Origin: a bacterium
GTDB taxonomy: Bacteria > UBA10199 > JAIBAG01
NCBI GenBank assembly: GCA_019695305.1
Contig: JAIBAG010000001.1
Span: forward strand, 144,774 to 208,773
DNA: 64,000 bases
Direction: 5' to 3'
The notes below the pieces were generated by a model that saw only the letters and a program-made list of their open reading frames with translations, did not search any database and was not told the origin of the DNA. Shown piece by piece: positions 1-36,228 of the stretch. Numbering within the stretch: position 1 is the stretch's first letter; every line of letters starts with the position of its first letter. Both the position numbers and the translations under genes were made by a program.

Positions 1-614
1 TTAAAACAATTATAATTTAATCCGTTTCCATCGTTTCCGTTGGCTGTTAAATCGGCGCTGTAGGTGGTTAAGGCTAAGTTGGCCATACATTGTAATTTTT
101 CTTCGGTATAACTGGCAAAATCAATTCCATCTTGCCACGAATATGTGCCCCCACCCGGGTTACAGGCTTGGTTAAAAATATTTTTACAACTTTCAAGCGA
201 ATGACAACCAGCTCCTCCGCCATCCACGCAAGTTGTATCTACGTACGAGTTGCCAAGTACGGCCATGTTAACGCAGTAGTCCGAATGGCCATCATCACCA
301 TCGGGGTCGGTATTTTCTGTTGAATTGGAAGGGGGAAGCGAATTGGCCAAGCCGTAATCGGCAATACAAGTCATTTGCGTGGCATTCATGCCGCCAAAAT
401 TTATTCCATCGCTCCACGAATACAAACCATTGCCCGGATCGCAATCGGTATTAAAATATTTTTCGCATTCATAAGCCGAATAACAACCGTGTGTGAGTCC
501 TTGTGTGGCCAATGCTGTTTGTGAAAAGGCAGTGAGAGAGAATGAGAAAGCTAAAAGGGCAAAAAGATTCAGCCATTTATTCCGTGATACCCCCCTTTTT
601 TGCCCATATCCCAT
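1..614 (-). CDS. Secreted Cys-rich repeat protein, C-terminus cut off by window edge
   Basis: The frame is open from an ATG at 614 down to base 1 without a stop, so only the N-terminal ~204 residues are visible. A basic start followed by a hydrophobic stretch and an Ala-rich end (residues ~12-37, ending SQTALA) looks like a Sec signal peptide. The mature part holds two related ~95-residue units, each with spaced cysteines and a YSW-x-DGI motif: the first begins CYSAYECEKYF, the second CHSLESCKNIF. The repeats suggest a disulfide-stabilised extracellular protein. The family is not recognised. The start is uncertain: the sigma-54 promoter at 629-642 would put transcription start only a few bases before this ATG, and a G-rich Shine-Dalgarno-like run lies inside the frame. 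The coding case rests on the open frame, the signal peptide and the internal repeat. Confidence 0.72.
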   Translation of the reverse strand, partial: MGYGQKRGVSRNKWLNLFALLAFSFSLTAFSQTALATQGLTHGCYSAYECEKYFNTDCDPGNGLYSWSDGINFGGMNATQMTCIADYGLANSLPPSNSTENTDPDGDDGHSDYCVNMAVLGNSYVDTTCVDGGGAGCHSLESCKNIFNQACNPGGGTYSWQDGIDFASYTEEKLQCMANLALTTYSADLTANGNDGNGLNYNCF

Positions 615-628
615 ATCTATTATAGAGA

Positions 629-642
629 GCAAAGGCCGTGCC
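629..642 (-). promoter_or_regulatory. Sigma-54 (-24/-12) promoter for the Cys-rich repeat protein
   Basis: Read on the minus strand the site is GGCACGGCCTTTGC, matching the RpoN consensus TGGCAC-N5-TTGC with GG and GC exactly 10 bases apart; only the base before GG differs. Predicted start of transcription is near 617. The site and the following CTATAATAGAT tract resemble the promoter of the giant gene at 14574-14587, so both are probably under one enhancer-dependent control. Confidence 0.72.
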
Positions 643-886
643 TTTTTGGCTAAGATGCTGAAAATAGTGAATTTTTGTATTGTTATATAAGGACTTGTAA
701 TTATTGGCTAAATTTTTATCCGATGTTATTTTGAAGTTGACCAAATGGGCAATTTATCATTATTTTTCATATAGTTAGTCAATATTTTGACAATAATATT
801 ACGTGTTTATCAAACTGGTAGAGTTTTTGATTCCGTTAGGACGCAACATTTGAAGGTAATATACCGATAATATTCATGGGCATTTT

Positions 887-1705
887 ATGACGATTGATTC
901 TTTAACATCGCAAGCGCCGCAGCAAGCGGCATTGCCGCTTGTAACAACGGGCGCAGTTTTAACGTCTCCTCTAAAACAAAATGGCGACGGCTATGCGTTG
1001 GCTTCTTTTTCCTCATTGCCGCGCAGCACACCGCCTTTATTGCCGCCTCTATTTTTTGTACCTCAAGCAACTCCTACAACCTCAAGCGGGGTAAGTGATA
1101 CCGATACAGGAACAACAGCTCCCACCTGTAACACTGCTGTAAGTTTAACCAGTAGCTGGAATGAAGAGACTTTTGGTTATAATGCTACCATTAGAGGACA
1201 AATGGTGATTGGGGATATAGAAAAAGTAATTGTGGCTCTTGCTCAAGCCGATAGCGCCGGTTTTAAAAAGATTTATCCAGGTATTGCACAAGTAACCCCC
1301 AATGGAAATGGTGTGTATACATATTTTATTCATGATACGAGCGATGTTTCTACTTACATTGGGCACTGTGTTAAATTTACTGTTACACGTAAACCTGATG
1401 GTGGCGTAACGATTACGCGTGAAAATTGCGGCCCACAACCCGATAAACCCGCTTGTGCTGGTTTTATGGATTACTACACCAATTTTACAAGTAACCGTGT
1501 AACCTGGGATTTTACACGTATTGGCGATAGTTCTGTTTTTGATGTTACCTGTAAGGTTAATTCACAATCTTATTTTAAAGATCAAACAGCTGCGTGGGGT
1601 GTAAGTCAAAGAGGACAAAAAATGAAAATTCCGTTTGATACCAATCTTAAAGCCTCTTTTGCCCGTGCCCGTACTCTGTTTGCGGGTGGTATTGCTTCTT
1701 CCTAA
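887..1705 (+). CDS. Orphan protein with Pro/Thr-rich leader and SDTDTG motif
   Basis: The 272-residue product is not recognised. It has no Sec signal peptide: residues 1-80 are Ala/Pro/Ser/Thr-rich with a hydrophobic patch (PLLPPLFFVP, ~50-59) followed by SDTDTG (~70-75). The rest (80-272) is a compact-looking domain with five cysteines, CNTAV, GHCVKF, ENCGPQ, PACAGF and VTCKV. The leader layout (RS, P/L-rich hydrophobic patch, then SDTDTG) recurs in the protein at 29372-31156, hinting at a shared targeting element. The ribosome-binding site before the ATG is weak. The gene is convergent with the hydrolase gene and their ends overlap by 4 bases. No promoter is clear: TTGACA occurs near 785 without a good -10. 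Confidence 0.6.
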   Translation: MTIDSLTSQAPQQAALPLVTTGAVLTSPLKQNGDGYALASFSSLPRSTPPLLPPLFFVPQATPTTSSGVSDTDTGTTAPTCNTAVSLTSSWNEETFGYNATIRGQMVIGDIEKVIVALAQADSAGFKKIYPGIAQVTPNGNGVYTYFIHDTSDVSTYIGHCVKFTVTRKPDGGVTITRENCGPQPDKPACAGFMDYYTNFTSNRVTWDFTRIGDSSVFDVTCKVNSQSYFKDQTAAWGVSQRGQKMKIPFDTNLKASFARARTLFAGGIASS

Positions 1706-2625
1706 TGATATTCGCTAAACCAGGCATCCATTTCCTGCGCATATTTTAACAGTGTTTCTTCTGCCACAGGGATGTGTTCACAATTTCCCAAGAGAACAAA
1801 TTTCTTTTTGCATTTTAAGCGATCATAATTTTTTTTGGAGAGCGATGCAGGCAAAAGTTTGTCTTCTCTGCCATGCAAAACAAGTGTGGGAATTTTATTG
1901 AATTGTTCAAAAGTAATAAGCGGTTTTGTGCTCACAAGACTATAACCCGCACTAAGCGTGTAATTATGAATAACAAGCGGGTTGGTTTTAAACAAATCTT
2001 TTACAACGGTATCATCGCACAAATAATCTACTTGTAAAAAATGTTGTAACGGTAAATTGGCTTTTGGAAAAAGTTTTGCTGCCAATTTTAGAACCGGTTT
2101 TAACGGAATCATTAAACTTGTTTGTCTGTTTATTTTAAGAGTTTCGTTACTTCCAAAATCCATTAAACACAGGCTGGCTATGGCTTTAACGTTGGCGCCT
2201 GCTGCTGCTGCATAATAACTTAAGCCCCCGCCCATAGAAATGCCAGCCAGGTAAACATTGTTGCCAAAGCGTTTATTCGCATAATTAACGGTATCAAATA
2301 AATTTTGTACAAACTCGCTGATGGTGCCACTGCCATAGGGTTTTGTGGTCATGCCAAAGCCCACTAAATCGGGGCATATTACATTGTAACTAGCTTTAAA
2401 GAGCCCTTTTATCATGTGCCCCATCATGCGGCCACAACTAGACAAACCATGGCAATATACCACGGTGGGAGAAGGTTTGGTTTGTTCATAAATATCTAAA
2501 TGAATTTGTGTATCGCCGGAGGGGATATATTTTTCCTCAATCGTGTTTTTAAAAAATAATAATTCATCGGGATCGGAAAAAAACTCCTCCCAATGGGAGT
2601 GATCCTTGTAAAAAGGTAGTGACAT
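1702..2625 (-). CDS. Alpha/beta-hydrolase fold protein
   Basis: The 307-residue product has the alpha/beta-hydrolase layout: an oxyanion HG motif (VVYCHGLSS, ~residue 60), the nucleophile elbow GISMGG (~residue 128), an acid in HGREDKLLP (~residue 252) and the catalytic His in NCEHIP (~residue 283). No signal peptide is seen, so it is probably cytoplasmic. The substrate cannot be told; esterases, lipases and C-C hydrolases share this pattern. It starts 17 bases after the stop of the giant surface-protein gene on the same strand and may be its read-through partner. Its 3' end overlaps the convergent orphan gene by 4 bases. Confidence 0.85.
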   Translation of the reverse strand: MSLPFYKDHSHWEEFFSDPDELLFFKNTIEEKYIPSGDTQIHLDIYEQTKPSPTVVYCHGLSSCGRMMGHMIKGLFKASYNVICPDLVGFGMTTKPYGSGTISEFVQNLFDTVNYANKRFGNNVYLAGISMGGGLSYYAAAAGANVKAIASLCLMDFGSNETLKINRQTSLMIPLKPVLKLAAKLFPKANLPLQHFLQVDYLCDDTVVKDLFKTNPLVIHNYTLSAGYSLVSTKPLITFEQFNKIPTLVLHGREDKLLPASLSKKNYDRLKCKKKFVLLGNCEHIPVAEETLLKYAQEMDAWFSEYH

Positions 2626-2642
2626 GAGCTTACGCTAATGAA

Positions 2643-5600
2643 TTACTTGAAAAGACGCAACCGTTTCGTGCCAAGGAAGACCACAGGGATTATAAAAATA
2701 AGCCATAAGGCAGGATGAGCAGCTTGATTGTTATTTAAACTACAACCACCACTAGCCGACAATTCATTGCCAGTATCACCGCCGCCTTGCTCACCCGAAC
2801 CAGTAGCGCTGCGGTTTAAGGCATAAATCACAGTGGAGGTGCCCTCGCTGGTTTCTTCACTCATCATTAAATCAAGTACCCCATCTCCATTAGTGTCGGT
2901 TAAGGCAAGTGTTTGGGCACCCAGTAAACCATTGGCTTGTGAACTTTCGATGGTAATGCTGGCGCCCGATGATGTATCCGATAAATCGATAGTTTGATGT
3001 GATGTACTGCCAAATCCAAACACCACATAAACCGCACCACCACTATTGCTGCCGCCCATGGGTGCGGATATCACGATATCTTCATAATTATCGCCCGATA
3101 CATCACCCATCACAGTTTGATAACCAAACAATCCACCGCTGCAATAAAGTCCGTTAATAGTAACATCAGCATTTTCCACGCTCTTACCTTCTATACTTTC
3201 GGTTCCAAAGAATACATAAGCACTGCAGCTGTTCATGCTGGATACTACTAAATCATTAATGCCATCACCGTTAAAATCGCCTACGTCCGATGAATAAAAT
3301 TGTTCTTCACTGTTAAATGTTGCATCAGCTTCATTTAAGCTCACATCCGATTCCCATTCATCTTGTCCTTCAACAGCTTTTACTTCGCCTTCTTCAGGCA
3401 TAGCAATATCAAGCTCGATGGCGCGTGTTACACTTAAACCTAAACTCTCTTCTACAACGCTGGTGTCTTCACTTGTATATTTACCACCAACAAATAATTC
3501 TGATTCGCTATCACCGTTAAAATCTTCAGCTTGCATAAATATATTTGTGCCCAAAGGTACGTTATCGGCTTCATTCACCAGTGAGAGGAACTGAGTTAAA
3601 TTGTTGGAATAAACAGCAATAATTCTTAATCCGGGGGCATGAATCGCTATTTTGTCGTCAAATACTACAAGCTCATAACCAAACTTGTCGCCTTCGGCTT
3701 GTCCTTCACGCGTTTTAACATAGCTGGGTAAATCCCACGCGTGGATATCGCCAGAAGCACTTGCAAAGGGGATGCGATAGACAATGCCTGTATTATTGTT
3801 AGCTGTAGAATCACCAATAAACACCACATTGTTTGTGGTATCTATTTTGTATTGTAGGGGAGCATCCGAACTACCATAAAAGCGGAACGAATCAAAATCG
3901 ATCACGCTCACACTGCCGTGACCTTCTACGGTTTCTGCATCGTTTATAATTAAACTACCACTGGCCGTAGCCCCCGTTGCTTTAACGCCATCATAACGAC
4001 CAAGAGTGCTATCCGTTGTTATAATATTAGCTTTTGTTACGATAATATTAACTGTACTGGATGCGGATTGAGAGTTTTTAGTAACGCTTAGAGTTAAATT
4101 AACAGAGCCATTATTGTCGCTAAATAACACCTCAACACTACTAGATGTTGCATTGCCAACAATCGCGCCATCACCTGTGATTGTCCACGAGTAACTCGTA
4201 TTTGTTGTATCGGCAGCTGTGTAGGTTCTTGTACTTCCGCTACCCACGGTTAAATGACCAATAATAGATGCATCCGGACTATCATCGGCAACATCATTAT
4301 CACTAATTGTTACAGTGATCGTTTCTATTGATGCATCATCATACTGGCTATCATCACTTGATGCCGTATGTGTGATGTTACTTGTATGATCTCCTTCAAT
4401 AGCATCATCATTAACAGCACTTACTGTGATAGTTTGTGGTGTATTCCAGTTAGCACTTGTAAAGGTTAATGTTGTGGGACTTACGGTTAAATTGCTATCC
4501 ACAGCAGGAGTAATAGTTACATCGTGCAACGGACGTGAATTAAGGACAACTGTATAAGTATCCGTTGTTCCGTCTTCGCTCACGTTTGTACCAGCATCAC
4601 TTTCACTAATTGTAATACCATGCGTATCGTTATTAGTAATTTCAACTAATATCGAGTTAGCTGATATTCCATTGTAGTTGGTGTCACTGCTCGCTACAGT
4701 GTGTGTAATAGTTGTGTTAGGATCTAATTCTTCAACACTATCATCCACAGCACTTACGGTTACGGTTTGCGGCGTGTTCCAGTTACCCGTTGTAAATGTT
4801 AAGCTTGATACACTGGCGTTGGCTTCGGATGTAGACACCACAGTTACCACAACATCGGATGTAGGTTCACTGGTGAGTACTACTGTGTACGTATCGGTAG
4901 TTCCCGATTCCGAAATAACGGTTGTACCGCCACTGGCTGTTACACTCACACCTGCACTGTCATTATCGGTAATATTAGTAACAACCGATCCTACGCTAAT
5001 ATTGTTATAGTTAACATCGCTACTGGAGGCTGTTTGCGTAATTGTTGTGTTCAAGCTGCCTTCGGCAACACTGTCATTATAAGCTGTAACCGTTACCGTT
5101 TGCGGTGTATTCCAGTTGCCGGCACCAAAGGTCAGCGTTTCGGTCGATAATGTAATTTGAGCGGAGTGAGTGAGTGTAATAGTTACTGTGTTTGTAGGTT
5201 GACTTGTAAGTACAACAGAATAACTATCGGTAGCGCCACCTTCTGTTACGGTGGTTGTACCACCACTTTGCGTGACACTCACACCAGCGCTGTCATTATC
5301 TGTTATACTGGTTACAACATCATTAATAGTAATTGCATTGTAGTTTGTATCGCTCGAGCTTGAAGTATGTGTCAGCGTTGTATTATGGCTGCCTTCAGCC
5401 ACGTTATCGTTTGTAGCGGTTATTGTTACCGTTTGCGGTGTATTCCAATTACCCGTTGTAAATGTAAGAACCGTGGGTGTTGTTGTTGCCTGGCTTGTAT
5501 TATTTACTGTTACCGTTACAGTAGAAGTAGGCTGACTGGTTAGAACTACCGTATACGTATCGGTAGCGCCGCCTTCGGTAACTGCACTTGAACCACCACT

Positions 5601-8600
5601 TTCGGTAATGCTGATGCCGGCACTATCATTATCGGTAATGGCTGCCACAACACTTGAAACAATAATACCATTATAATTTGTGTCACTCGAACTAGCCGCA
5701 TGCGTAATGGTAGCATTATGATTTCCTTCGGCTACGTCATCATTTACCGCAGTTACGGTTACTGTACGCGGTGTATTCCAGTTGGCATTGGTAAACGTAA
5801 GGCTTGATGCACTGACATTGGCTTGTGCTGTACCCGTAACAGTCACGGTTACATCATCTGTAGGTTCACTGGTTAAAACTATTGTATAGGTATCGGTTGT
5901 ACTGCCTTCGGTAATCCCCGTTGTGCCACCACTTTGGGTTACAGTAATACCGGCACTGTCATTATCAACAATCGCAACGCTCACACTGGCAGCACTAATA
6001 CCATCATAACCACCATCATTACTGGTTACTGTATGAGTTAATGTGACGTTACTATTACCCTCAGCTAAACTGTCATCAACGGCTGTTAATGTAATGGTTT
6101 GCGGTGTGTTCCAGTTGCCACTGGTAAAGATTACCGAGGCACTGCTACGGCTTACCTGAGCACTTGAAGAAAGACTGATGGTCACATCATCAGTGGGCTG
6201 GCTAGCAAGAACAATAGTATAAGTATCCGTCGAACCACCTTCGGTAACACTGGTTGAACCGCTTGTCTCAGTAATGGTAACGCCCGGCGTATCGTTATCG
6301 GTGATATTGGCTGTGATGGCTGTGCCTGTTAACGTATCATAGTTATTATCAGCACTACTGATGGCATATGTAATTGTATCAGTATGTGCTCCTTCATTGA
6401 GGGCATCATCCACAGCGGTAACTGTTACGGTTTGTGGAACATTCCAGTTGCCACTGGTAAATGTCAATGTGGCATCATCCACCGCCAGATCACTTCCCGG
6501 TGTGAGTGTAATATCCACATCATTTGAAGGAGCGCTGTCGAGAGTAATTGTAAAGGTATCACTACCTGTACCTTCGGTAACATTGGTGCTGCCACCGCTT
6601 TGAGTGATATTTAACGCATAACTATCATCATCGGTAATGGTTACACTCACTTGTTGCACACCACTTTCGGTTCCATTGGTAACACTATCCACATCCACAT
6701 CAATGGTTTCGGCAGCGTCCACAATACCATCATCGGTTGCTGTTAGTGTGGCTGTGCCTGTTGTTCCACCGGCATTAATTGTAATGGATGAACTGGATGC
6801 CGTGTAATCGGAGTTTTCGGTAGCTGTGCCACTGTAGGCTAAATCAACAGTTACATTAAGACCTGATACTGCCGACAATGTTGCAGTTACTGTTGATATG
6901 CCACCCGCTTCGGCAATAGTAGCCGGTGTACGCGAGAGAGTTACCGTAGGCGGGTTATCATCATCCGTAATAGTAGCCACACCCTGATTATCACTAATAG
7001 AGGCATTAGTGGCACTGCTTATGGTTACATTAATTGTTTCATCATTTTCATCGATAGAATCCGATAAAATGGGCACTGTAATATTTTTTGTGGTTTGACC
7101 GGCGGTAAAGGTAAGAGTGCCCGAAGCTGTGCTGTAATCGCTACCCGATGTAGCCGTACCATTACTGGTTGTATAGGTTACCGTTACAGTTTTACCGCTG
7201 GCAGCGCTTAAGGTTACGGTAAAGCTGGCACTGCCACTTTCGCCAACACTCACATCATCAATGCTTAACGAGGGAGCCGCATCATCATCGGTTATCGTCA
7301 CTGTTGCCGTGCTATCGGCAATGGAAGCCACTGTTGCATTGCTTAAGGTGACTACTAAATTTTCGTCAGGTTCATCGGTTGTGTCACTTGTAATGCTAAT
7401 ATCAAAAGTTTTAGAGGTTTCACCGGCGGCAAAAGTGAGTGTTCCGCTCGCTGCCGTATAATCGCTACCCGCTGTTGCTGTACCGTTACTGGTGGCATAA
7501 TCTACCGTTACTTGCTGTCCTGCAGCTGAAGCTAAAGTTACGGTAACGGTTACTGTGCCATCACTTTCGCCGGCACTGACATCCGCTACACTTAAGCCCG
7601 GAGCAGTATCATCATTATTAATAGTACCAACACCTTGGCTATCACTTATAGTGGCGTTACTGGCGTTACTTAAGTTTACATTAAACGTTTCATTGGCTTC
7701 GTTGACACCATCATCGCTAAAAGAAACATCAATTGTTTTTGTAGTTTCACCGGCTGCAAAAGTAAGTGTTCCAGACGCTGCCGTGTAATCGCTCACAGCA
7801 GTAGCGGTATTATTGGCTGTGGCATAATCCACTGTTACACTACGACCGCTAGCTGTACTTAAGGTAACAGTAAACGTAGCTGTTCCGCCTACGTCATTTT
7901 CGGTCACGCTCACATCATTGATACTTAAGGATGGGCTCGCATCATCATCGGTGATGGTAACAGTTCCCGTTGCATCACTAATGGTAGCGCCTGAAGGACT
8001 GCTGAGCGTTACCGTAATGGTTTCGTTAGCTTCATCGATACTGTCGTCGGCAATGGTAATATCAAATGTTTTGGACGTTTCACTGGCCTCAAATGTAAGT
8101 GTTCCAGAAGCCGCTGTATAATCGCTTCCAGCTGTAGCTGTTCCGTTGGAGGTAGCATAGTTAACTGTTACTTGTTGTGAACTGGCATTTGACAAGCTTA
8201 CCGTTACCGTTGCTGTGCCGTCTTCTTCTCCAACTGTAGTATCGGCTACCGAGAGAGTTGCTGCATCATCATTGGTAATCGTTCCAGTACCGGTAGCATC
8301 GCTAATGGTGGCATTGGTGGCGTTACTTAAGGTTACCGTATACGTTTCATTTCCTTCATCTACAGAATCATTGGAAATCGTTACATCAAAAGTTTTGGTA
8401 GTTTGACCAGCATCAAAGGTGAGTGTTCCACTGGCGGCCGTGTAATCGCTACCTGCTGTAGCTGTACCATTGGATGTAGCATAATCAACAGTAACGCTTT
8501 GTTCGCTGGCGGCACCTAATGTTACTGTAAATGTTGCTTTACCAGCCATTACGTTTTCGGCCACGCTTACATCATTAACACTTAAACTAGGTGAACCATC

Positions 8601-11600
8601 GTCATCAGTAATTGTAATGGTACCAGTAGCATCACTAATTGTTGTGTTGGTGGCGTTACTTAAAGTTACGGTAATGGTTTCGTTGGCTTCATCTGTTGAA
8701 TCATCATTAACTGTTACGTTAAATGTTTTGCTGGTTTCTCCTGCATCAAAGGTGAGTGTTCCCGAGGCGGATACATAATCGCTGGCAGAGCTTGCTGTAC
8801 CGTTGCTTGTTGCATAGTCAACTGTTACCTGGCGGTCGCTCGTTGTGGCCAGTGTTACCGTCACAACCGCATGATCATCGCCTTCACCTACAGTTTCATC
8901 GGCCAGAGAAATTGTAGCACTATCGTTATCGGTAATAGTGGCAACACCGGTATCATCGCTGATAGTTACACTTCCGTTACTTAAGCCTAAATTAAACGTT
9001 TCATTCACTTCATCCACGGTATCGCCGGCTACAGAAAAATTCACTGTTTTAGAAGTTTCACCTGCGTTAAAAGTAAGAGTACCACTGCCTGATGTGTAAT
9101 CACTTCCTGCTGTGGCCGTACCATTGCTGGTAGCATAATCAACCGTCACACTATCGCTGCTTGCTGTACTTAACGTAATGGTAAATGTTGCTGTTGTTGT
9201 GCCTGAATTTCCTTCATTAATGCTAATATCATCTACGCTAAACGTGGGAGCACTTTCATCATCATCATTGGTAACACTTACGTCCGCTACGGCCAAATTA
9301 TCAAAAATTCCGTCGACAGAATTTGTTACACTTGTGGTAATTGTAAAAGATTGATTTCCATCCGATACAAGATCATCCACGCCGGTTATTGTTACTGTTT
9401 GAGGTGTATTCCAGTTTCCATTTGTAAAGGTAAGGCTTGCAGGGCTTACTGTACCTTCACCGGTATCCGTGCTTGTTAAATCGAAAGATACATCCGATGA
9501 AGGTTGCGCTGTCAGTACTGCAGTAAATGTAGCCGTTGTACCATCTTCAACGGTGTGTCCGCTGATAGCCGATATACTGACACCGGCTGTATCATTATCA
9601 TTATTTGTAGCCGTTACATCGGCTGCATTCACACCATCAAAATTAGAATCATTACTGGTGGCGGCTGCCGTAATAATGTTGAAGTTAACATTGCCATCAA
9701 TAATATTATCATTCACACCAGTTACAGTTACGGTTTGTGGCGTATTCCAATTGGCCGATGTAAAGGTTAAGCTTGCAGCACTTACCGTACCTTCACCGGT
9801 ATCATCGCTAGAAATTCCGATAGTGACATCATCACTGGGTTGTGCCGTTAACACGACAGTAAAGCTATCAGTTCCGCCTGCTTCGGTTACAACCGTTGTA
9901 CCACCACTTTGTGTTACCGTAATACCGGCGCTATCGTTATCGTCGTTTGTAACAGCTACGTTAGCAGGATTTAAATTATTATAATTGGTATCGTTACTCG
10001 TAGCCGCCGCTGTCACCACATTGAAAGCCACATCGCCATCAATAATACTATCGTTAACACCCGTTACCGTAATAGTTTGATTGGAATTCCAGTTTACAGA
10101 CGTAAACGTAAGGCTTGCAGCACTTACCGTACCTTCACCGGTATCATCGCTAGAAATTCCGATAGTGACATCATCCGTAGGTTGAGTGGCAAGTTTAACG
10201 GTAAACGTTGCAGTACCGCCGGCTTCGGTAGTGTGCCCGCTAATGGCACCAATTGTAAAAGCAGCGGTATCGTTATCGGTGTTAGTAACAGCCACATTGG
10301 CTGCATTCATGGTATTGTAATTACCATCATTGGATGTAGCGGCAGCTGTTACGATATTATAATTGATATCACCATCATCCACATCGTCATTAACACCGGT
10401 CACTGTAATAGTTTGCGGTGTATCCCAGTTAGCGGATGTGAAGGTGAGACTTGCTGCACTCACTGTACCTTCACTGGTATCATCCGAGCTAATACCAATA
10501 GTTACATCATCACTAGGAGCACCATCCAATACAACCGTAAATGTGGCTGTACCCCCGGCTTCGGTTGTGTTGCCGCTGATTGCACTTACAGTAATGCCGG
10601 CGGCGGGGGAATCATCATCGGTAATAGTGTATTCATGTTGAGTGGTGGCACCCAAAGTTGCATTGGACGGATTGCTGATATCAACGATGACAGTTTCGTC
10701 GCTTTCATCGTTTCCATCGTCTTCAACGGAAAGCGTGATATTTTTAGAAGTTTCACCCGCATTAAAAGTAAGCGTACCGCTAGCCAAAGTAAAATCGGTA
10801 CCTCCACCTGTAGCAGTACCTCCAGTTACGGCATAATCAACGGTTACGCTTAAACCCGAAGCCGTACTTAAGCTTACCGCCAGTGTTGGCGCTGCTGTGT
10901 CTTCACCACCGCTCGATGTTCCTGCATCAAAACTTACCGTAGGAGGGTTATCATTATCATTAATAGTGTACGTATGGCTTGTTGTTACTCCTAAGCTTGA
11001 GTTAGTAGGATTACTAATGGCTACTACAACTGTTTCATTATTTTCATCCAATGTATCATTGGCTACATCCAGCGTAATATTTTTGGAAGTTTCACCCGCA
11101 TTAAAAGTAAGCGTACCGCTAGCCAAAGTAAAATCGGTTCCGCCGCTCGTGGCTGTTCCGCCAGTCACAGCATAATCAACAGTTACACTCTGACCTGAAG
11201 CTGTGCTCAAATCTACTGCGATTGTAGGTGCTGCTGTGGCTTCGCTCCCATTTGATGTTGAAGCATTAAAAGCAACAGTGGGGGCTGCATCATCATCGGT
11301 AATATCAACTTGTACTTGCTGTGTACCGCTTTCTGTACCGTTGGTGACGCTTGAAATATCAACCACAATTGTTTCGGCGGCTTCGTCCAAAGTATCGTTT
11401 ACGCCCGTTAAGGTGATGGTACAACTTACAGATTGTGCCGGGATGGTACACGATGCAGCACCTGTATAATCGGATGTAATCGTGCCAGTTCCCGAGTATG
11501 CAACGTTAACAGTAACACTTAAACCGGTACCTCCCGATAGAGTTGCGGTAACGGTAGAAGTTCCTCCGTTTTCGGCAATTGTGGCGTTGTTACGCGAAAG

Positions 11601-14528
11601 AGTTACGGAAGGATTAAAATCCCAATTAGGAACGTGGCCTGAATTAGTAGAGTTTGTTGGTACAATGCTAGTGCTACTGGGCGTAGCATCACTATCTTTT
11701 ACGTCTACATAACTTACATTTTTTGTGCCGTTGGCATCGAGTAACCAAGCATTTCCCGTGGAAGTGCTGCGTAATGTTATCAGGTTTCCGGCAGAACCTG
11801 TAAGTGTGAGAGTGCCATCAATTGTTTGTGTGGTGCCGTTTGTAAAGGTAATGGCTTTTCCAGCGGTTGTACTGGTAAAATTGTTGAAAGTAGAAGAACC
11901 GGAAATGACGCTGGTAGTGCCTGCGGTATCAAATATGACGGTGTTATTTTCGTGGGTAAAGGTACCGCTTTTGCTCCAGTTACCTCCCACTGTAATATCG
12001 TTTCCATTAGTTTCCAAACTTCCCTGTGTAAGTGAAAAATTATTATTTACGTCTAAAACAGCATCCAAACCCCATGCGCCACCATTGCCGTTAATGGTTA
12101 GATTGTAGTAATTATCGCCAAATTTAAGTTCGGTATAAGTGCTGGTGCCAACGTATTCTACTGTTCCCGAATTTGTATCATTAGTGGCACTTACAGTTTC
12201 TCCACCCTGCAGGCGAATAGTTCCGTCATTGCTAACGGTACCGGTTACGGTAAGATTGCTACCGTTTAAGCTTAAAATACCACTCGTGACGCTTAGATTT
12301 GTATTCACCAGAATAGTTGCACCTAAGTTAAAAATATCGGTGCTTCCATCAATGCTGTCGATGCCTAAATTATAATAAGTAGTAGCAAAACTGTTGATAC
12401 TATAAGTGTCGGCCGCGCCATCTCCATCGCCTCTAAAAGTAACAGTTGATCCAGAATTGAGTGTTTTGGTATTGAGCGTTACAGCAGCGCCATTAAAGCC
12501 GAAATTACCACCGTTGTTTACTGTAAGAAGATCCCCTTTTACTGCATTCATTACATATACAGTTCCATTGACAGTGATATCACCTGCGTTTGTAGCATTA
12601 GTAGTTAAATAAACTGTGCAATTTGCTGGAATGGTCAGGTTTGTACTAGCAGCTCCACCTTTATAATCTATTGTAGGGCTTGTGTTATCACTGGCATTGA
12701 GATTGCCCGAACAATTATTAATAGTTTGTTGTGCTGTTGATGGCCCGTTAAAGGTAAGGGTTGTTGAGCTTAAATTGCTAATTGTTCCTGTATTAGAATA
12801 ATCATCGGTAACAATAATGCTTGTGTTGGCTGCTTGGGTTAACGTCCCCGTATTTGTAAGCGTGCCACCAATGTTCATGGTATTATTAGTGGCACGAATG
12901 AGTGTTCCATTAATGGTTACATAATTTGAACTCCATGCTCCGTTTTGGTTCATGGTGCCATTAATTACCACAGCCCCCGAAGTACTGATGGCGCTTTGGT
13001 AAACTTCGCAACCGGCAGGAAGTGTAAATACTGTAGAGGCGGCAGCGCCGCTGATGTTTACTACGGGACCGGTGTTGCCTGCTGAATTTAGATAGCCTGA
13101 AGGACAACTAGTACTAGGATTTAGAATAGTTTGTTGTGCTGTTGATGGCCCATTAAAGGTAAGGGTTGTTGTGCTTAAATTGCTGATAGTTCCTGTATTA
13201 GAATAATCATCTGTAACCGTAATAGTTGTGCTGGCCGCTTGGGTTAGCGTGCCCGTATTTGAAAGAGTGCCTGTAATGGCCAAGGTATTATTAGTGGCAC
13301 GAATGAGTGTTCCATTAATGGTTAAATCATTGGAGCTCCAGGCCCCGTTTTGGTTCATGATACCGTTAATAATAATCCCCCCCGAAGTACTGATAGCATT
13401 TTGGTAAACTTCGCAACCGGCAGGAAGTGTAAATACTGTAGAGGCGGCAGCGCCGCTGATGTTTACTACGGGACCGGTGTTGCCTGCTGAATTTAGATAG
13501 CCGGACGGGCAACTAGTACTGGGATTTAGAATAGTTTGTTGTGCTGTTGATGGCCCGTTAAAGGTAAGGGTTGTTGAGTCTAAATTGCTGATAGTGCCCG
13601 CATTGGAATAATCATCTTTAACAGTAATGGTAGTGTTGGCTGCTTGAGTTAACGTTCCTGTATTTGAAAAGGTGCCATTAATGGCCATCGTGTTATTCGC
13701 AGAGCGGGTTAGTGTTCCATTAATAGTTACATCATTGGAACTCCAGGCCCCGCTTTGATCCATTATGCCATTAATAATAATACTTCCCGAAGTACTGATG
13801 GCATTCTGGTAAAGTGTACAGCCATTACCCAGCGTAGTAGTTTGCGAATTTGCTCCACCACTAATATTAATTGTAGGATTGATGTTAGTTGAAGAGTTGA
13901 GACTTCCCGAACAAGTTATTGTTTGAGATGTAGTTGCTCCACCATTTAATGTGATGATGGCCCCTGTTAAAACAGGTGATCCACTAATCGTAATACTTTT
14001 TGTTGTTGTAATTGTTTTTCCGGTTGTAATGGTACCACCCGAGATAGTTAGCCCCGTGCCGCCTGTAAACGATGTTGTGGCGGCTGGTGTAAAAGTTCCG
14101 CCACTGATAGCAGATGTACCGCCAATCGAAACAGTTCCTGAAGTATGTCCTGAAAAAACACCATCAGCTTGTTGCCAGCCTGATGTGCCTACTGTGATGG
14201 AGGTAGAAATCGGTTGTGTGATTGTACCTGTGTAGCCTGAGCGAATATCAATACCCTTCACGTTTACTGACGCATTTAAGTTAGGGTTGTTTGTATTGGC
14301 TGAAGTGAATGTTGCTATGTCATCACTACCGGGTGCTACACCGCCATCGCAAGTGCTCCCTGCGCCTCCGCTTGAACTTGACCAGCTGGCAGCATTTCCC
14401 CAGTTGCCACTACTGGCACCCACCCAATAACAGGTGGCGGCTGCAGCAAAGCTTGTTGATGAAAAAATGGTGAGTGAAAAACCAAGAACTAAAAATACAA
14501 AAAGAGCTTTAATTAGCCCCCTACCCAT
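2643..14528 (-). CDS. Giant Calx-beta/FG-GAP surface protein with C-terminal sorting tail
   Basis: The 3,961-residue exported protein has: a Sec signal peptide (1-~30); a W/G/S-rich N-terminal region; Thr/Ser-rich beta repeats (~190-600) including near-identical 135-residue units; roughly 22 Calx-beta-type modules (~970-3415), each ~95-115 residues, with the pattern SGTLTF-x-AGETSK and ending in a DDD or DND acidic linker likely to bind calcium; a PKD-like segment (~3420-3500); FG-GAP-like blood-coagulation-integrin repeats (DFNGDG, DVSGDN, DTNGDG; ~3660-3900); and a tail of GGCSL, a hydrophobic helix (ALWLIFIIPVVFLG) and a basic end (KRLRLFK). That tail resembles Cys-containing sorting signals such as MYXO-CTERM or JDVT-CTERM, so the protein is probably surface-anchored after processing. 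An adhesin role is inferred. A GGGGA run lies just before the ATG. Many antisense open frames inside it are compositional shadows. Confidence 0.92.
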   Translation of the reverse strand: MGRGLIKALFVFLVLGFSLTIFSSTSFAAAATCYWVGASSGNWGNAASWSSSSGGAGSTCDGGVAPGSDDIATFTSANTNNPNLNASVNVKGIDIRSGYTGTITQPISTSITVGTSGWQQADGVFSGHTSGTVSIGGTSAISGGTFTPAATTSFTGGTGLTISGGTITTGKTITTTKSITISGSPVLTGAIITLNGGATTSQTITCSGSLNSSTNINPTINISGGANSQTTTLGNGCTLYQNAISTSGSIIINGIMDQSGAWSSNDVTINGTLTRSANNTMAINGTFSNTGTLTQAANTTITVKDDYSNAGTISNLDSTTLTFNGPSTAQQTILNPSTSCPSGYLNSAGNTGPVVNISGAAASTVFTLPAGCEVYQNAISTSGGIIINGIMNQNGAWSSNDLTINGTLIRATNNTLAITGTLSNTGTLTQAASTTITVTDDYSNTGTISNLSTTTLTFNGPSTAQQTILNPSTSCPSGYLNSAGNTGPVVNISGAAASTVFTLPAGCEVYQSAISTSGAVVINGTMNQNGAWSSNYVTINGTLIRATNNTMNIGGTLTNTGTLTQAANTSIIVTDDYSNTGTISNLSSTTLTFNGPSTAQQTINNCSGNLNASDNTSPTIDYKGGAASTNLTIPANCTVYLTTNATNAGDITVNGTVYVMNAVKGDLLTVNNGGNFGFNGAAVTLNTKTLNSGSTVTFRGDGDGAADTYSINSFATTYYNLGIDSIDGSTDIFNLGATILVNTNLSVTSGILSLNGSNLTVTGTVSNDGTIRLQGGETVSATNDTNSGTVEYVGTSTYTELKFGDNYYNLTINGNGGAWGLDAVLDVNNNFSLTQGSLETNGNDITVGGNWSKSGTFTHENNTVIFDTAGTTSVISGSSTFNNFTSTTAGKAITFTNGTTQTIDGTLTLTGSAGNLITLRSTSTGNAWLLDANGTKNVSYVDVKDSDATPSSTSIVPTNSTNSGHVPNWDFNPSVTLSRNNATIAENGGTSTVTATLSGGTGLSVTVNVAYSGTGTITSDYTGAASCTIPAQSVSCTITLTGVNDTLDEAAETIVVDISSVTNGTESGTQQVQVDITDDDAAPTVAFNASTSNGSEATAAPTIAVDLSTASGQSVTVDYAVTGGTATSGGTDFTLASGTLTFNAGETSKNITLDVANDTLDENNETVVVAISNPTNSSLGVTTSHTYTINDNDNPPTVSFDAGTSSGGEDTAAPTLAVSLSTASGLSVTVDYAVTGGTATGGGTDFTLASGTLTFNAGETSKNITLSVEDDGNDESDETVIVDISNPSNATLGATTQHEYTITDDDSPAAGITVSAISGNTTEAGGTATFTVVLDGAPSDDVTIGISSDDTSEGTVSAASLTFTSANWDTPQTITVTGVNDDVDDGDINYNIVTAAATSNDGNYNTMNAANVAVTNTDNDTAAFTIGAISGHTTEAGGTATFTVKLATQPTDDVTIGISSDDTGEGTVSAASLTFTSVNWNSNQTITVTGVNDSIIDGDVAFNVVTAAATSNDTNYNNLNPANVAVTNDDNDSAGITVTQSGGTTVVTEAGGTDSFTVVLTAQPSDDVTIGISSDDTGEGTVSAASLTFTSANWNTPQTVTVTGVNDNIIDGNVNFNIITAAATSNDSNFDGVNAADVTATNNDNDTAGVSISAISGHTVEDGTTATFTAVLTAQPSSDVSFDLTSTDTGEGTVSPASLTFTNGNWNTPQTVTITGVDDLVSDGNQSFTITTSVTNSVDGIFDNLAVADVSVTNDDDESAPTFSVDDISINEGNSGTTTATFTITLSTASSDSVTVDYATSNGTATAGSDYTSGSGTLTFNAGETSKTVNFSVAGDTVDEVNETFNLGLSNGSVTISDDTGVATITDNDSATISLADETVGEGDDHAVVTVTLATTSDRQVTVDYATSNGTASSASDYVSASGTLTFDAGETSKTFNVTVNDDSTDEANETITVTLSNATNTTISDATGTITITDDDGSPSLSVNDVSVAENVMAGKATFTVTLGAASEQSVTVDYATSNGTATAGSDYTAASGTLTFDAGQTTKTFDVTISNDSVDEGNETYTVTLSNATNATISDATGTGTITNDDAATLSVADTTVGEEDGTATVTVSLSNASSQQVTVNYATSNGTATAGSDYTAASGTLTFEASETSKTFDITIADDSIDEANETITVTLSSPSGATISDATGTVTITDDDASPSLSINDVSVTENDVGGTATFTVTLSTASGRSVTVDYATANNTATAVSDYTAASGTLTFAAGETTKTIDVSFSDDGVNEANETFNVNLSNASNATISDSQGVGTINNDDTAPGLSVADVSAGESDGTVTVTVTLASAAGQQVTVDYATSNGTATAGSDYTAASGTLTFAAGETSKTFDISITSDTTDEPDENLVVTLSNATVASIADSTATVTITDDDAAPSLSIDDVSVGESGSASFTVTLSAASGKTVTVTYTTSNGTATSGSDYSTASGTLTFTAGQTTKNITVPILSDSIDENDETINVTISSATNASISDNQGVATITDDDNPPTVTLSRTPATIAEAGGISTVTATLSAVSGLNVTVDLAYSGTATENSDYTASSSSITINAGGTTGTATLTATDDGIVDAAETIDVDVDSVTNGTESGVQQVSVTITDDDSYALNITQSGGSTNVTEGTGSDTFTITLDSAPSNDVDITLTPGSDLAVDDATLTFTSGNWNVPQTVTVTAVDDALNEGAHTDTITYAISSADNNYDTLTGTAITANITDNDTPGVTITETSGSTSVTEGGSTDTYTIVLASQPTDDVTISLSSSAQVSRSSASVIFTSGNWNTPQTITLTAVDDSLAEGNSNVTLTHTVTSNDGGYDGISAASVSVAIVDNDSAGITVTQSGGTTGITEGSTTDTYTIVLTSEPTDDVTVTVTGTAQANVSASSLTFTNANWNTPRTVTVTAVNDDVAEGNHNATITHAASSSDTNYNGIIVSSVVAAITDNDSAGISITESGGSSAVTEGGATDTYTVVLTSQPTSTVTVTVNNTSQATTTPTVLTFTTGNWNTPQTVTITATNDNVAEGSHNTTLTHTSSSSDTNYNAITINDVVTSITDNDSAGVSVTQSGGTTTVTEGGATDSYSVVLTSQPTNTVTITLTHSAQITLSTETLTFGAGNWNTPQTVTVTAYNDSVAEGSLNTTITQTASSSDVNYNNISVGSVVTNITDNDSAGVSVTASGGTTVISESGTTDTYTVVLTSEPTSDVVVTVVSTSEANASVSSLTFTTGNWNTPQTVTVSAVDDSVEELDPNTTITHTVASSDTNYNGISANSILVEITNNDTHGITISESDAGTNVSEDGTTDTYTVVLNSRPLHDVTITPAVDSNLTVSPTTLTFTSANWNTPQTITVSAVNDDAIEGDHTSNITHTASSDDSQYDDASIETITVTISDNDVADDSPDASIIGHLTVGSGSTRTYTAADTTNTSYSWTITGDGAIVGNATSSSVEVLFSDNNGSVNLTLSVTKNSQSASSTVNIIVTKANIITTDSTLGRYDGVKATGATASGSLIINDAETVEGHGSVSVIDFDSFRFYGSSDAPLQYKIDTTNNVVFIGDSTANNNTGIVYRIPFASASGDIHAWDLPSYVKTREGQAEGDKFGYELVVFDDKIAIHAPGLRIIAVYSNNLTQFLSLVNEADNVPLGTNIFMQAEDFNGDSESELFVGGKYTSEDTSVVEESLGLSVTRAIELDIAMPEEGEVKAVEGQDEWESDVSLNEADATFNSEEQFYSSDVGDFNGDGINDLVVSSMNSCSAYVFFGTESIEGKSVENADVTINGLYCSGGLFGYQTVMGDVSGDNYEDIVISAPMGGSNSGGAVYVVFGFGSTSHQTIDLSDTSSGASITIESSQANGLLGAQTLALTDTNGDGVLDLMMSEETSEGTSTVIYALNRSATGSGEQGGGDTGNELSASGGCSLNNNQAAHPALWLIFIIPVVFLGTKRLRLFK
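12741..13955 (-). repeat. Tandem 405-bp repeats inside the giant gene
   Basis: Starting points at 12741, 13146 and 13551 are exactly 405 bases apart, encoding 135-residue units. The first two junction regions are nearly identical in DNA, with mostly scattered single-base changes, while the third unit is more diverged toward its far end. Recent duplication or homogenisation by recombination is implied. Such repeats are prone to copy-number change and to assembly collapse. Confidence 0.85.
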
Positions 14529-14573
14529 TCCCCTATTTTTTTAGCTCTCTTCCCATTATCTATTATAAGGGAA

Positions 14574-14587
14574 GCAAGGTTTGTGCC
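14574..14587 (-). promoter_or_regulatory. Sigma-54 (-24/-12) promoter for the giant gene
   Basis: On the minus strand the site reads GGCACAAACCTTGC, with GG-N10-GC spacing, the two invariant dinucleotides and the CAC and TTGC flanks of the RpoN consensus. Predicted transcription start is near 14562, leaving a leader of about 34 bases before the ATG at 14528. The remaining gap up to 14977 is AT-rich and holds no gene I can support; enhancer sites for an activator would be expected there but none is recognised. Confidence 0.75.
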
Positions 14588-14977
14588 TAAGTGATTGAAA
14601 TGAGGCCTTTTTAGCTTTATTTAGACCACGCTAAACTGTTGATTTTTATAAAAAAAATAATGAACCTAAATTTTAGATTGGAAAGGTTTTATCCAATGTA
14701 TATTTTGGGGTTAAATTATACCCTTTAGCGGCAATATTTGCCTGTCATTATGAGAGCTCGTCATTAATTGGCGTGTTTTTTCATGTGAAAAATGGGTTTC
14801 GCTTAAAATTGAAGCTCAAAATAGTATTAATTATCAAATATTTATTGCCCAGCATTGTATTGATCATAAATACACAAATAAATACAAGTGGTTATAGCGT
14901 GTAAAATCAGTGTTAGGGTTTCCCTGAGGTAGGTTTAGTCAAAAAGTCGGCGTATAAGGGAAATATGAAAGAGTATT
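14588..14977. other. AT-rich intergenic stretch upstream of the sigma-54 promoter
   Basis: No open frame of coding character is seen on either strand. The stretch lies between the giant gene's promoter and the 3' end of parB. It probably carries activator-binding DNA for the sigma-54 promoter and the parB 3' flank, but no clear terminator hairpin or palindrome was found. Confidence 0.4.
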
Positions 14978-15856
14978 TTACAGCGCCCCAACCAATTTAT
15001 TGAAAAAGGCCTCTAGCTCATCCTGGGTATGGAAATTAATAATGAGTTTCCCTTTTTTGCCATTGGTGGATTTAATCAGCACTTTGGTGCGGAGCATTTT
15101 TTTAAGCTCCTCTTCCAAATTTTTGAAAGGGTTACTTATTTTTTTTGGACCGGCTACTTTGTCTAGGTCATCAACAGTTGTTTCATTTTGTGACTCTTTT
15201 ACTTCACGTGTCAAATTTTCTATATCTCTTACCGATAAATCATTTTTCAAAATTTGTTCGGCGGCTCTAAGTTGCAAATCTCTACTTTCTAAACTGAGTA
15301 GTGCCCGCGCATGACCCATCGATAATTTGTTAGAAATTAGATGGCCGCGAATTTCTTCGGGCAATTTTAAAAGCCGCAAAGTGTTGGCAATGCTGGATCT
15401 GTCCTTCCCCATTTTTTTAGCGAGCTCATCTTGGGTATATTGATATTTTGACATCAATTCTTGATACGCCAAAGCTTCTTCAATGGGATTTAAATCTTGT
15501 CTTTGTAAATTTTCAATGAGGGCAACCTCCATTACCTCGTTACCTTCAATATCTTTTACAATAACGGGAATGGTTTCAAATTTTAGTTGCTTGGCCGCGC
15601 GATAACGTCTTTCGCCAGCAATAATTTCATATTTTCCGCCCCCTAATTTGCGTACTAAAATGGGCTGAAGAATTCCTTTTTCTTCAATGGAAGAAGCGAG
15701 TTCATCAATAGCCCCTCTATCAAATAATTTACGAGGCTGATTTTCGTTGGCCACAATATCATTGAGGGGACATTCAAAAATTTTGTTGCCATCTTTATCG
15801 GACCGACCAAGGGGAATTAAAGAACTTAAACCTTTACCAAGTGCACGTTTTTCCAT
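14978..15856 (-). CDS. parB: Chromosome-partitioning protein ParB
   Basis: The 292-residue product binds parS sites and spreads as a CTP-dependent clamp to drive origin segregation with ParA. Seen: the N-terminal ALGKGLSSLIP peptide that contacts ParA; the CTP-binding/ParB-N domain with GERRYRAAK (~residue 81); the box ALIENLQRQDLNPIEEALA (~112); a helix-turn-helix region (YTQDELAKKMGKDRSSIAN, ~138); and a C-terminal dimerisation domain. Length is normal. It follows parA with a 55-base gap, in the usual rsmG-parA-parB order found near bacterial origins. Two parS-like sites lie close by. Confidence 0.97.
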   Translation of the reverse strand: MEKRALGKGLSSLIPLGRSDKDGNKIFECPLNDIVANENQPRKLFDRGAIDELASSIEEKGILQPILVRKLGGGKYEIIAGERRYRAAKQLKFETIPVIVKDIEGNEVMEVALIENLQRQDLNPIEEALAYQELMSKYQYTQDELAKKMGKDRSSIANTLRLLKLPEEIRGHLISNKLSMGHARALLSLESRDLQLRAAEQILKNDLSVRDIENLTREVKESQNETTVDDLDKVAGPKKISNPFKNLEEELKKMLRTKVLIKSTNGKKGKLIINFHTQDELEAFFNKLVGAL

Positions 15857-15911
15857 ATTTTCGTTATACTGACTAAGTGTGAAAAATAAGTTTTGTGGTT
15901 AATACAAAAAA

Positions 15912-16712
15912 TTAAGAATTTTGAACTAGTGTCAAACCACCCTTACGAATCTGACCCGAACGTTCCACGATTTCGGATGCCAAATTTTGATAAGATTCAG
16001 CCCCAATTGATTTGGGATCGTAAAGTTGAATAGGCACCCCGTGAGATGGAGATTCGGACAATTTTACATTGCGGGGAATGAGCGTACTAAAAACTTTTTC
16101 TTTAAAATAATTTTGAACTTCACCCACCACTTGATGCGACAAGTTGTTACGCTTGTCAAACATGGTTAAAAATATACCGCCTAAATTTAAATCGGGGTTC
16201 AAATTTTCTTTTATCATGTCGATGGTATGAACCAATTCCGAAATTCCCTCCAAGGCATAATATTCACATTGAACCGGAATCATCACCGTGTCGGCGGCTG
16301 TCAAAGCATTCACTGTTAGTAAGCCCAACGATGGCGGGCAATCAATAATAATAAAATCGTATTCGGGCACCACATCTTTAAGAGCATTTTTTAATTTATT
16401 TTCCCGGGCAAAGGCATTCACTAATTCCACCTCGGCACCAATCAAATCGCGGTTCGAAGGAGCAATATCAAAATTTTCAATTTCAGTTTTTCGTATAACA
16501 TCCTTCATGGACACCTGGCCAATCAAGGCATGGTAAATACTTTTTTCAATTTTATATTTGTTAACCCCTAAACCGCTACCGGCGTTGCCCTGAGGGTCCA
16601 TATCTATAAGAAGTGTTTTTTTACCAAGCTTGGCCAAAGACACCGAAACGTTTACCGATGATGTAGTTTTGCCAACCCCACCCTTTTGATTACAAAGAAC
16701 GATAATTTTCAT
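15912..16712 (-). CDS. parA: Chromosome-partitioning ATPase ParA (Soj)
   Basis: The 266-residue product is a Walker-type ATPase that moves ParB-parS complexes over the nucleoid. Seen: the deviant Walker A motif KGGVGKTTSS (~residue 10), an A' box (LLIDMDPQGNAGSGLG, ~35), and the Walker B region (YDFIIIDCPPSLG, ~118). Length and order are typical. An AGGAGATC Shine-Dalgarno-like sequence lies just upstream of the ATG. Confidence 0.97.
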   Translation of the reverse strand: MKIIVLCNQKGGVGKTTSSVNVSVSLAKLGKKTLLIDMDPQGNAGSGLGVNKYKIEKSIYHALIGQVSMKDVIRKTEIENFDIAPSNRDLIGAEVELVNAFARENKLKNALKDVVPEYDFIIIDCPPSLGLLTVNALTAADTVMIPVQCEYYALEGISELVHTIDMIKENLNPDLNLGGIFLTMFDKRNNLSHQVVGEVQNYFKEKVFSTLIPRNVKLSESPSHGVPIQLYDPKSIGAESYQNLASEIVERSGQIRKGGLTLVQNS

Positions 16713-35526: not shown

Positions 35527-36228
35527 TTATCTCCTGTATTTTACAAGCTTGAGCGTGAGTACTAGAGGATGTCCACGATATTCGTCATACAAATTATCGG
35601 CATTGCTCGAAACAAAAAATGGGCGTGTGTTCTTATCCACCACGGTTTCAATCATTTGTTCCACGTAAAAATTGTGCTGGCGTAAAAGCGCCCACAGCGA
35701 TTCAAAGGTATACGGTATGTTTGGATTTTTAAGCGAAAAATGAAGTGCTGGGTGCATAAGCGAAACCACTCCCCTGCCCTCATTTTTTAAAACTCGTGCC
35801 CATTCACTGAGCAAGGTTTCAAGTCTATAAATGGTATTGGCAAGAGGTGCTAGTAAGACATCGGCGGTTTCACTTTTAAAAGGAAGCGCCATGGGATCGG
35901 CCTCAACAGCAGCATAAGAGTGAGGCAATGTTTTGCTTTGAACCAAGTTGAAGGCACCGGTTTTGCTTTTACCGGCGTGGCGCAATTCAAGCAAAGTTTG
36001 CTTCTGCGTTTCACTAATTTTTTGAAACAAATAAGGTGATTCACTTTCGGTAATATAAAAATTTGTTTTATTTTCTAAGGGAGGAAGTAATTCCAAAAAA
36101 CGTCCCGATTCGGCAACGCGCATCAAATCGGCCAAATCGGATCCGCTGAGCGTATGCCAAAAATTTGGAGCGTAAGACGGAGTATTTTCGGGTGAAAAGC
36201 CCAGTATTTTTTTAAGGCGTGCGGCCAT
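35527..36228 (-). CDS. SAM-dependent methyltransferase-like protein
   Basis: The 233-residue product looks like a class I methyltransferase C-terminal half: VEADPMALPFKSETADVLLAPL (~109-130) matches the acidic motif and post-motif region of BioC-like enzymes, followed by EWARVLKNEGRGVVSLMHP (~142). The glycine-rich SAM loop is not obvious near the start, so it may be divergent or inactive. The substrate is unknown. Its stop codon is followed by RidA after 4 bases and its start overlaps the YefM-like stop by one base. Confidence 0.6.
   Translation of the reverse strand: MAARLKKILGFSPENTPSYAPNFWHTLSGSDLADLMRVAESGRFLELLPPLENKTNFYITESESPYLFQKISETQKQTLLELRHAGKSKTGAFNLVQSKTLPHSYAAVEADPMALPFKSETADVLLAPLANTIYRLETLLSEWARVLKNEGRGVVSLMHPALHFSLKNPNIPYTFESLWALLRQHNFYVEQMIETVVDKNTRPFFVSSNADNLYDEYRGHPLVLTLKLVKYRR

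Follow-up and report, generated by a model that had tools for sequence, protein, structure and literature searches.

Predicted sigma-54 promoters of a giant surface-protein family and a candidate FlbD/FlrC-type activator in a deltaproteobacterium-like bacterium

Two paralogous genes for giant surface proteins, here genes A and B, each carry a -24/-12 element that we take with fair confidence to be a genuine sigma-54 promoter, where gene B and a third paralogue, gene C, are most likely switched by an enhancer-binding activator (EBP) of the FlbD/FlrC type. Genes A and B lie in the window, by which we mean the whole 64 kb stretch of DNA that was analyzed, and the features on which the argument draws are as follows.

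3..614, minus strand: N-terminal part of gene A, with the ATG at 614 being codon 7 of a mechanically called TTG ORF that continues to the left of the window
615..624, minus strand: TATAATAGAT at gene A, 4 nt after TTGC
629..642, minus strand: predicted sigma-54 -24/-12 element of gene A, GGCACGGCCTTTGC, predicted transcription start 617
778..791, minus strand: candidate activator dyad of gene A, GTCAAAATATTGAC, at about -149 from the -24 GG
1702..2625, minus strand: alpha/beta-hydrolase gene, 17 nt behind gene B
2643..14528, minus strand: gene B, 3,961 aa, with a signal peptide, Calx-beta repeats and an FG-GAP C-terminal region
14558..14567, minus strand: TATAATAGAT at gene B, 6 nt after TTGC
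14574..14587, minus strand: predicted sigma-54 -24/-12 element of gene B, GGCACAAACCTTGC, predicted transcription start 14562
14721..14742, minus strand: candidate upstream activating sequence of gene B, comprising the dyad GGCAAATATTGCC (14730-14742) and an extension, CGCTAAAGGG, common to gene C
14727-14739, plus strand: exact copy of the 13-mer AGCGGCAATATTT within the gene B element

The initial annotation had reported two GG-N10-GC sites upstream of large secreted-protein genes, and both were recovered. Each site matches TGGCAC-N5-TTGCW at 10 of 11 positions, the sole miss being an A for the T before GG, and the two agree with each other at all nine consensus positions (9/9). Counting from the C of the -12 element yields the predicted starts, which place the ATG of gene A at about +4, so that its transcript would be almost leaderless, and the ATG of gene B at about +35. 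Between the promoter and the listed ATG of gene B lies a short ORF (window 14533-14556, minus strand; ATG GGA AGA GAG CTA AAA AAA TAG, MGRELKK) that aligns with the start of gene A. A one-base shift in its run of seven A residues would fuse it to gene B and lengthen the n-region of the signal peptide; slippage, a real indel and an assembly error are all possible at this run.

The machinery that such promoters need is present. The reading in the initial annotation depended on the genome having a sigma-54 gene, and an intact, full-length rpoN was found (487 aa, RpoN box ARRTVAKYRE). Its nearest named matches are ~47-54% identical, and the lineage is deltaproteobacterium-like. Eleven strong EBP genes accompany it, seven with GAFTGA and others with GSFTGA, GAYTGS or GAFTDA. 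Three EBP genes in tandem, two with receiver domains, were seen behind a sensor-like protein on contig C9 (L072:2667-8058, minus strand).

We estimate from base composition that exact GGCAC-N5-TTGC should occur ~0.25 times in the 64 kb window, where it occurs three times; the third copy, at 35952 (plus strand), is antisense within an ORF. Across the 2.78 Mb genome, for which the stretches around motif matches were read, the exact motif occurs 39 times against 11 for a reversed control pattern (3.5 times). With the leading T (TGGCAC-N5-TTGC), the count is 19 versus 3 for the control here and, for example, 51 versus 1 in genome G001. Enrichment over the reversed control extends class-wide, to 39 related genomes. 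A scan for the motif upstream of signal-peptide genes, as suggested in the initial annotation, likewise revealed an excess. One crude export-signal rule, applied both to the sites and to a null set of positions distributed across the window, places 15 of the 39 sites just upstream of ORFs with an export-type N-terminus, where ~1 is expected (null rate 2.9%, P about 1e-13), a count that is generous because several cases (e.g. L010, L013, L029, L056) lie in other frames or look spurious. For TTGCT sites only, the figure is 9/20 (P about 2e-9). Besides A and B, the clearest cases are lipoprotein or signal-peptide proteins at L003, L022, L024, L028, L051, L053 and L058. Two other genomes of the class show the same exported-protein theme (e.g. 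L215, L216, L225), with an AmtB-like ORF at L211. Four contig-end copies of a repeated stretch, GGAGGCACYAARATTGCCGG..., stand ahead of a small protein, MNWKEKFKDVLSPLLTLYTITYIGLM... (L055, L056, L057, L059), and are probably a multi-copy element.

That both sites are chance matches to a short consensus is therefore the least credible reading, and we give it almost no weight. If two mismatches are tolerated, the window shows no excess of the motif (54 found versus 57 expected), and many of the 39 exact genome matches fall inside coding frames; the evidence for the motif comes from the exact matches and the genome-wide scan, and not on the two-mismatch window count. Chance is opposed by the excess over the reversed control, by the placement of sites before exported-protein genes and by the recurrence of the site at the starts of three paralogues. 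Given rpoN, the GAFTGA-bearing EBPs, the enriched motif and its preference for exported-protein genes, the A and B sites are very probably real RpoN promoters, and very probably belong to a wider sigma-54 set serving lipoproteins and other exported proteins.

The initial annotation also described matching sequence just downstream of the two sites. TATAATAGAT is indeed common to both, but it is out of register with the -24/-12 elements, its position differing by 2 nt between the two genes. Gene C carries a variant, with TATCAT, 5 nt after TTGC. We considered TATAATAGAT as a second conserved promoter element but, since its distance from TTGC varies (4 nt at A, 6 nt at B, 5 nt for the C variant), ruled out a fixed element. 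In a genome-wide search, TATAATAGAT-N0-3-TGGGA was confined to the A and B promoter regions. Since TATAAT is a perfect -10 hexamer, TATAATAGAT could instead be the -10 of a sigma-70 promoter, leaving the GGCAC-N5-TTGC match incidental. At gene B a TAGGCA hexamer does lie 16 nt upstream (10/12), yet such a match is at shuffle level (1 found, shuffle mean 2.4), and no sigma-70-like promoter was found with the TATAAT of gene A. The TATCAT at gene C and the enrichment and non-random placement of the predicted sigma-54 sites also speak against this reading, which we judge highly improbable.

The genes themselves proved to be large and secreted, as first described, but gene A is not a small Cys-repeat protein. 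Its full ORF extends beyond the window and encodes 4,344 aa, with Cys-rich modules near the N-terminus only and with Calx-beta, PKD-like and FG-GAP matches. Gene B holds ten Calx-beta stretches above threshold, plus FG-GAP, and ends in GGCSL, a hydrophobic stretch and a basic end. The initial view of A and B as unrelated kinds of protein is not supported: their C-terminal 440 aa are 50% identical, and the sequences indicate that the two are paralogues. They lie on one strand with the alpha/beta-hydrolase gene and one small ORF between them, and the spacing of the hydrolase gene suggests that it is probably co-transcribed with gene B. The genes parB and parA lie immediately upstream of gene B, also on the minus strand (window 14978-16712), which raises the possibility that the two giant genes are close to the chromosome origin.

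The C-terminus of gene A led to the third paralogue, gene C (~1,850 aa, contig C10, L089:3898-9489, minus strand). Its site, TGGCTCCACTTTTGCT, reads GGCTC-N5-TTGC with an imperfect -24, and had been returned as the only genomic match to the composite promoter pattern at <=3 mismatches before gene C was identified. The ATG of gene C lies at about +5. A lipoprotein on contig C11 (L022, C11:63116, minus strand) has possible TTG/GTG starts at about +1 to +4 of its predicted sigma-54 start and, together with A and C, suggests near-leaderless sigma-54 transcripts in this organism. The stop codon of gene C is overlapped by a lipoprotein gene (L089:2051-3901). Convergent with that neighbor is a gene for an exported protein with a GGCSL tail and cysteine-rich acidic repeats (L089:24-2045, plus strand; TIGR02232).

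All three giant proteins have a signal-peptide-like start, and their tails carry GGCSL or GGGCAL followed by a hydrophobic stretch and then basic residues. In an NCBIfam comparison of gene B only, the tail scored 14.2 bits against JDVT-CTERM, below the 27-bit curated cut-off, and gave no MYXO-CTERM match. A protease of the myxosortase family is also present in the genome (L181 protein, with 117.9 bits for Mrt_core and a cut-off of 100 bits). A further sigma-54-preceded exported protein of 1,400 aa (L062:4177-8379, plus strand) ends in SSAGGCSLNANN, with the GGCSL motif and no hydrophobic tail, and the ORF after it starts like a protein kinase. A pattern-based scan of the genome contig collection returned no homologues of the giant C-terminal domain; weak distant matches were found only in two genomes of the class, G028 and G010, where no sigma-54 site of at least 9/11 precedes the distant giant proteins. 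No orthologues of A, B or C were found in the other genomes searched.

Because the genes are paralogues, the likeness of the A and B promoters is partly a matter of descent, and both promoters probably derive from one ancestral promoter-plus-signal-peptide unit that each gene retained; gene C has a like layout. Were the match a mere residue of gene duplication, it would say nothing about regulation. In favor of this, the likeness of A and B does reach into the signal-peptide DNA. Against it, the -24/-12 elements have kept every consensus position while the C-termini have fallen to 50% identity, the remaining upstream DNA of the two genes is largely unalike, the same element recurs before unrelated exported-protein genes, and the dyad farther upstream is seen again at an EBP operon. 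We thus consider an uninformative residue very unlikely, and retain the reading of these sites as genuine promoters.

Inspection of the DNA farther upstream links gene B, gene C and an EBP. The sequence AAATATTGCCGCTwwAGGG is common to B (-152) and C (-127), which are the only places in the genome within two mismatches of it, both being exact. When the upstream regions of other sigma-54 sites were scanned, the core of this element was also found at -105 of a sigma-54 site on contig C3, in the opposite orientation. Its 13-mer, AGCGGCAATATTT, is found exactly three times in 2.78 Mb, each time ~105-152 nt upstream of a strong sigma-54 site (gene B, gene C and the C3 EBP operon). Copies with one mismatch number 15 versus 10 for a control pattern, and none lies within ~330 nt of a sigma-54-like site scoring >8/11. 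In two other genera, counterparts precede the orthologous EBP operon (GGCAATATTTTCC in G028 at -127 and GGAAATATTTTCC in G010 at -95), which amounts to phylogenetic footprinting of a probable EBP site. A motif built from the EBP operons only gave P = 0.005 for B, 0.035 for C and 0.12 for A, and was not significant at 13 other sigma-54 sites tested in this genome (all P above 0.1). By position and conservation, the B/C dyad is most likely a site of the C3 EBP or of its relative on contig C37.

In the C3 operon, the EBP gene is accompanied by genes for a lytic transglycosylase and a TPR-like protein, and the operon adjoins ORFs whose translations read as fliD and fliS. FlbD and FlrC are flagellar sigma-54 activators. 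The C3 EBP resembles them in that its best NCBIfam match is FlbD, at 363 bits and thus below the 750-bit equivalog cut-off, that FlrC is among its PDB matches and that flagellar-reading ORFs lie beside it; it differs in that its candidate targets would include surface proteins. The protein has a degenerate receiver-like N-terminus and carries GAYTGS in place of GAFTGA. A search of 44 other genomes for this EBP gave matches at E up to 1e-90 in G028 and G010 only, which are also the genomes with the distant giant C-terminal domain matches. Both genomes preserve the operon order, with flagellar-type ORFs adjacent, and in each a sigma-54 site lies before the transglycosylase gene or overlaps its start. 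The C37 EBP shares 44% identity with that on C3, and the recognition helices of the two are nearly identical. A literature search did not return the ftr consensus of Caulobacter FlbD.

The dyad of gene A resembles that of gene B less closely. It matches the EBP-operon motif at 10/13 positions and differs from the B dyad symmetrically in both arms (GTCAA/TTGAC versus GGCAA/TTGCC). The two dyads lie at nearly equal distances from their promoters and have AAATATTG in common. Against the published Pseudomonas putida FleQ consensus, GTCAaAAAAtTGAC, the A dyad agrees at 13/14 positions and is the only match with <3 mismatches in 64 kb, a likeness that is a lead only because it was noticed after the dyad was seen. 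The promoters could accordingly be functional sigma-54 promoters with B and C under an FlbD-like EBP and A under a different EBP of the FleQ/FlrA type acting through GTCAAAATATTGAC. The symmetrical difference and the FleQ match speak for such an arrangement, and eleven EBPs are available for it; however, no EBP of this genome was identified as a FleQ orthologue, the comparison followed sight of the dyad, and the near-equal distance and shared AAATATTG tie the A dyad to that of B. We regard two activators as unlikely, though likelier than the other alternatives. The joint control of A and B proposed initially is supported in part: B and C share the exact element with the EBP operon, whereas A has a weaker, different dyad.

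In the circuit that we favor, RpoN polymerase would stay closed at -24/-12 until an activator bound ~100-155 nt upstream remodels the complex. For B and C this activator would most likely be the C3 FlbD/FlrC-type EBP, or its C37 relative, because B, C and the EBP's own operon share GGCAATATTT. For gene A, the same EBP or one related to it would probably act through the diverged dyad. The giant surface proteins may consequently be made in step with flagellar gene expression. More broadly, a flagellar FlbD/FlrC-type activator might directly switch on the giant surface-protein family via the operator GGCAATATTT(T/G)CC, bringing coat or adhesion and flagellar assembly under one sigma-54 checkpoint in this uncultured lineage, a proposal that we advance as a serious but tentative one.

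Earlier work casts sigma-54 as a regulator of the bacterial exterior (Francke et al. 2011, PMC3162934; Desulfovibrio vulgaris regulome, PMC4641369). The sites found here likewise stand preferentially before genes for lipoproteins and exported proteins, before a PilB-like ATPase gene and before a flagellum-linked EBP operon, whereas the targets, unlike those described, include a giant Calx-beta/PKD/FG-GAP family with a Cys-containing C-terminal tail. No description of the sigmulon of this lineage was found in the literature. MYXO-CTERM proteins, which are associated with myxosortase, combine a signal peptide with a C-terminal Cys motif, a hydrophobic helix and a basic end (PMC11980579). The giant proteins share the signal peptide and Cys tail in a genome that encodes a myxosortase-family protease, but with a GGCSL-type tail and a sub-threshold JDVT-CTERM match in B they are putative substrates at most. 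In Pseudomonas, FleQ controls the giant adhesin LapA (PMC6120874). Similarly, a flagellum-associated EBP is here tied to a very large repeat adhesin-like protein, and the A dyad resembles a FleQ box. In contrast to FleQ and LapA, the giant-gene promoters are of the sigma-54 type, the EBP resembles FlbD/FlrC, and the tail of the giant proteins points to C-terminal anchoring. Since both sigma-54 exterior control and FleQ-LapA are established, the circuit would be a new instance with specific wiring and not a new kind of system.

With promoter, operator, candidate activator and target family all named, what began as a two-site pattern becomes a testable circuit. It would widen the scope of sigma-54 exterior control to include giant surface proteins with C-terminal tails, from a little-known deltaproteobacterium-like class, and it points to a coupling of surface-protein production with the flagellar program, parallel to FleQ and LapA in Pseudomonas.
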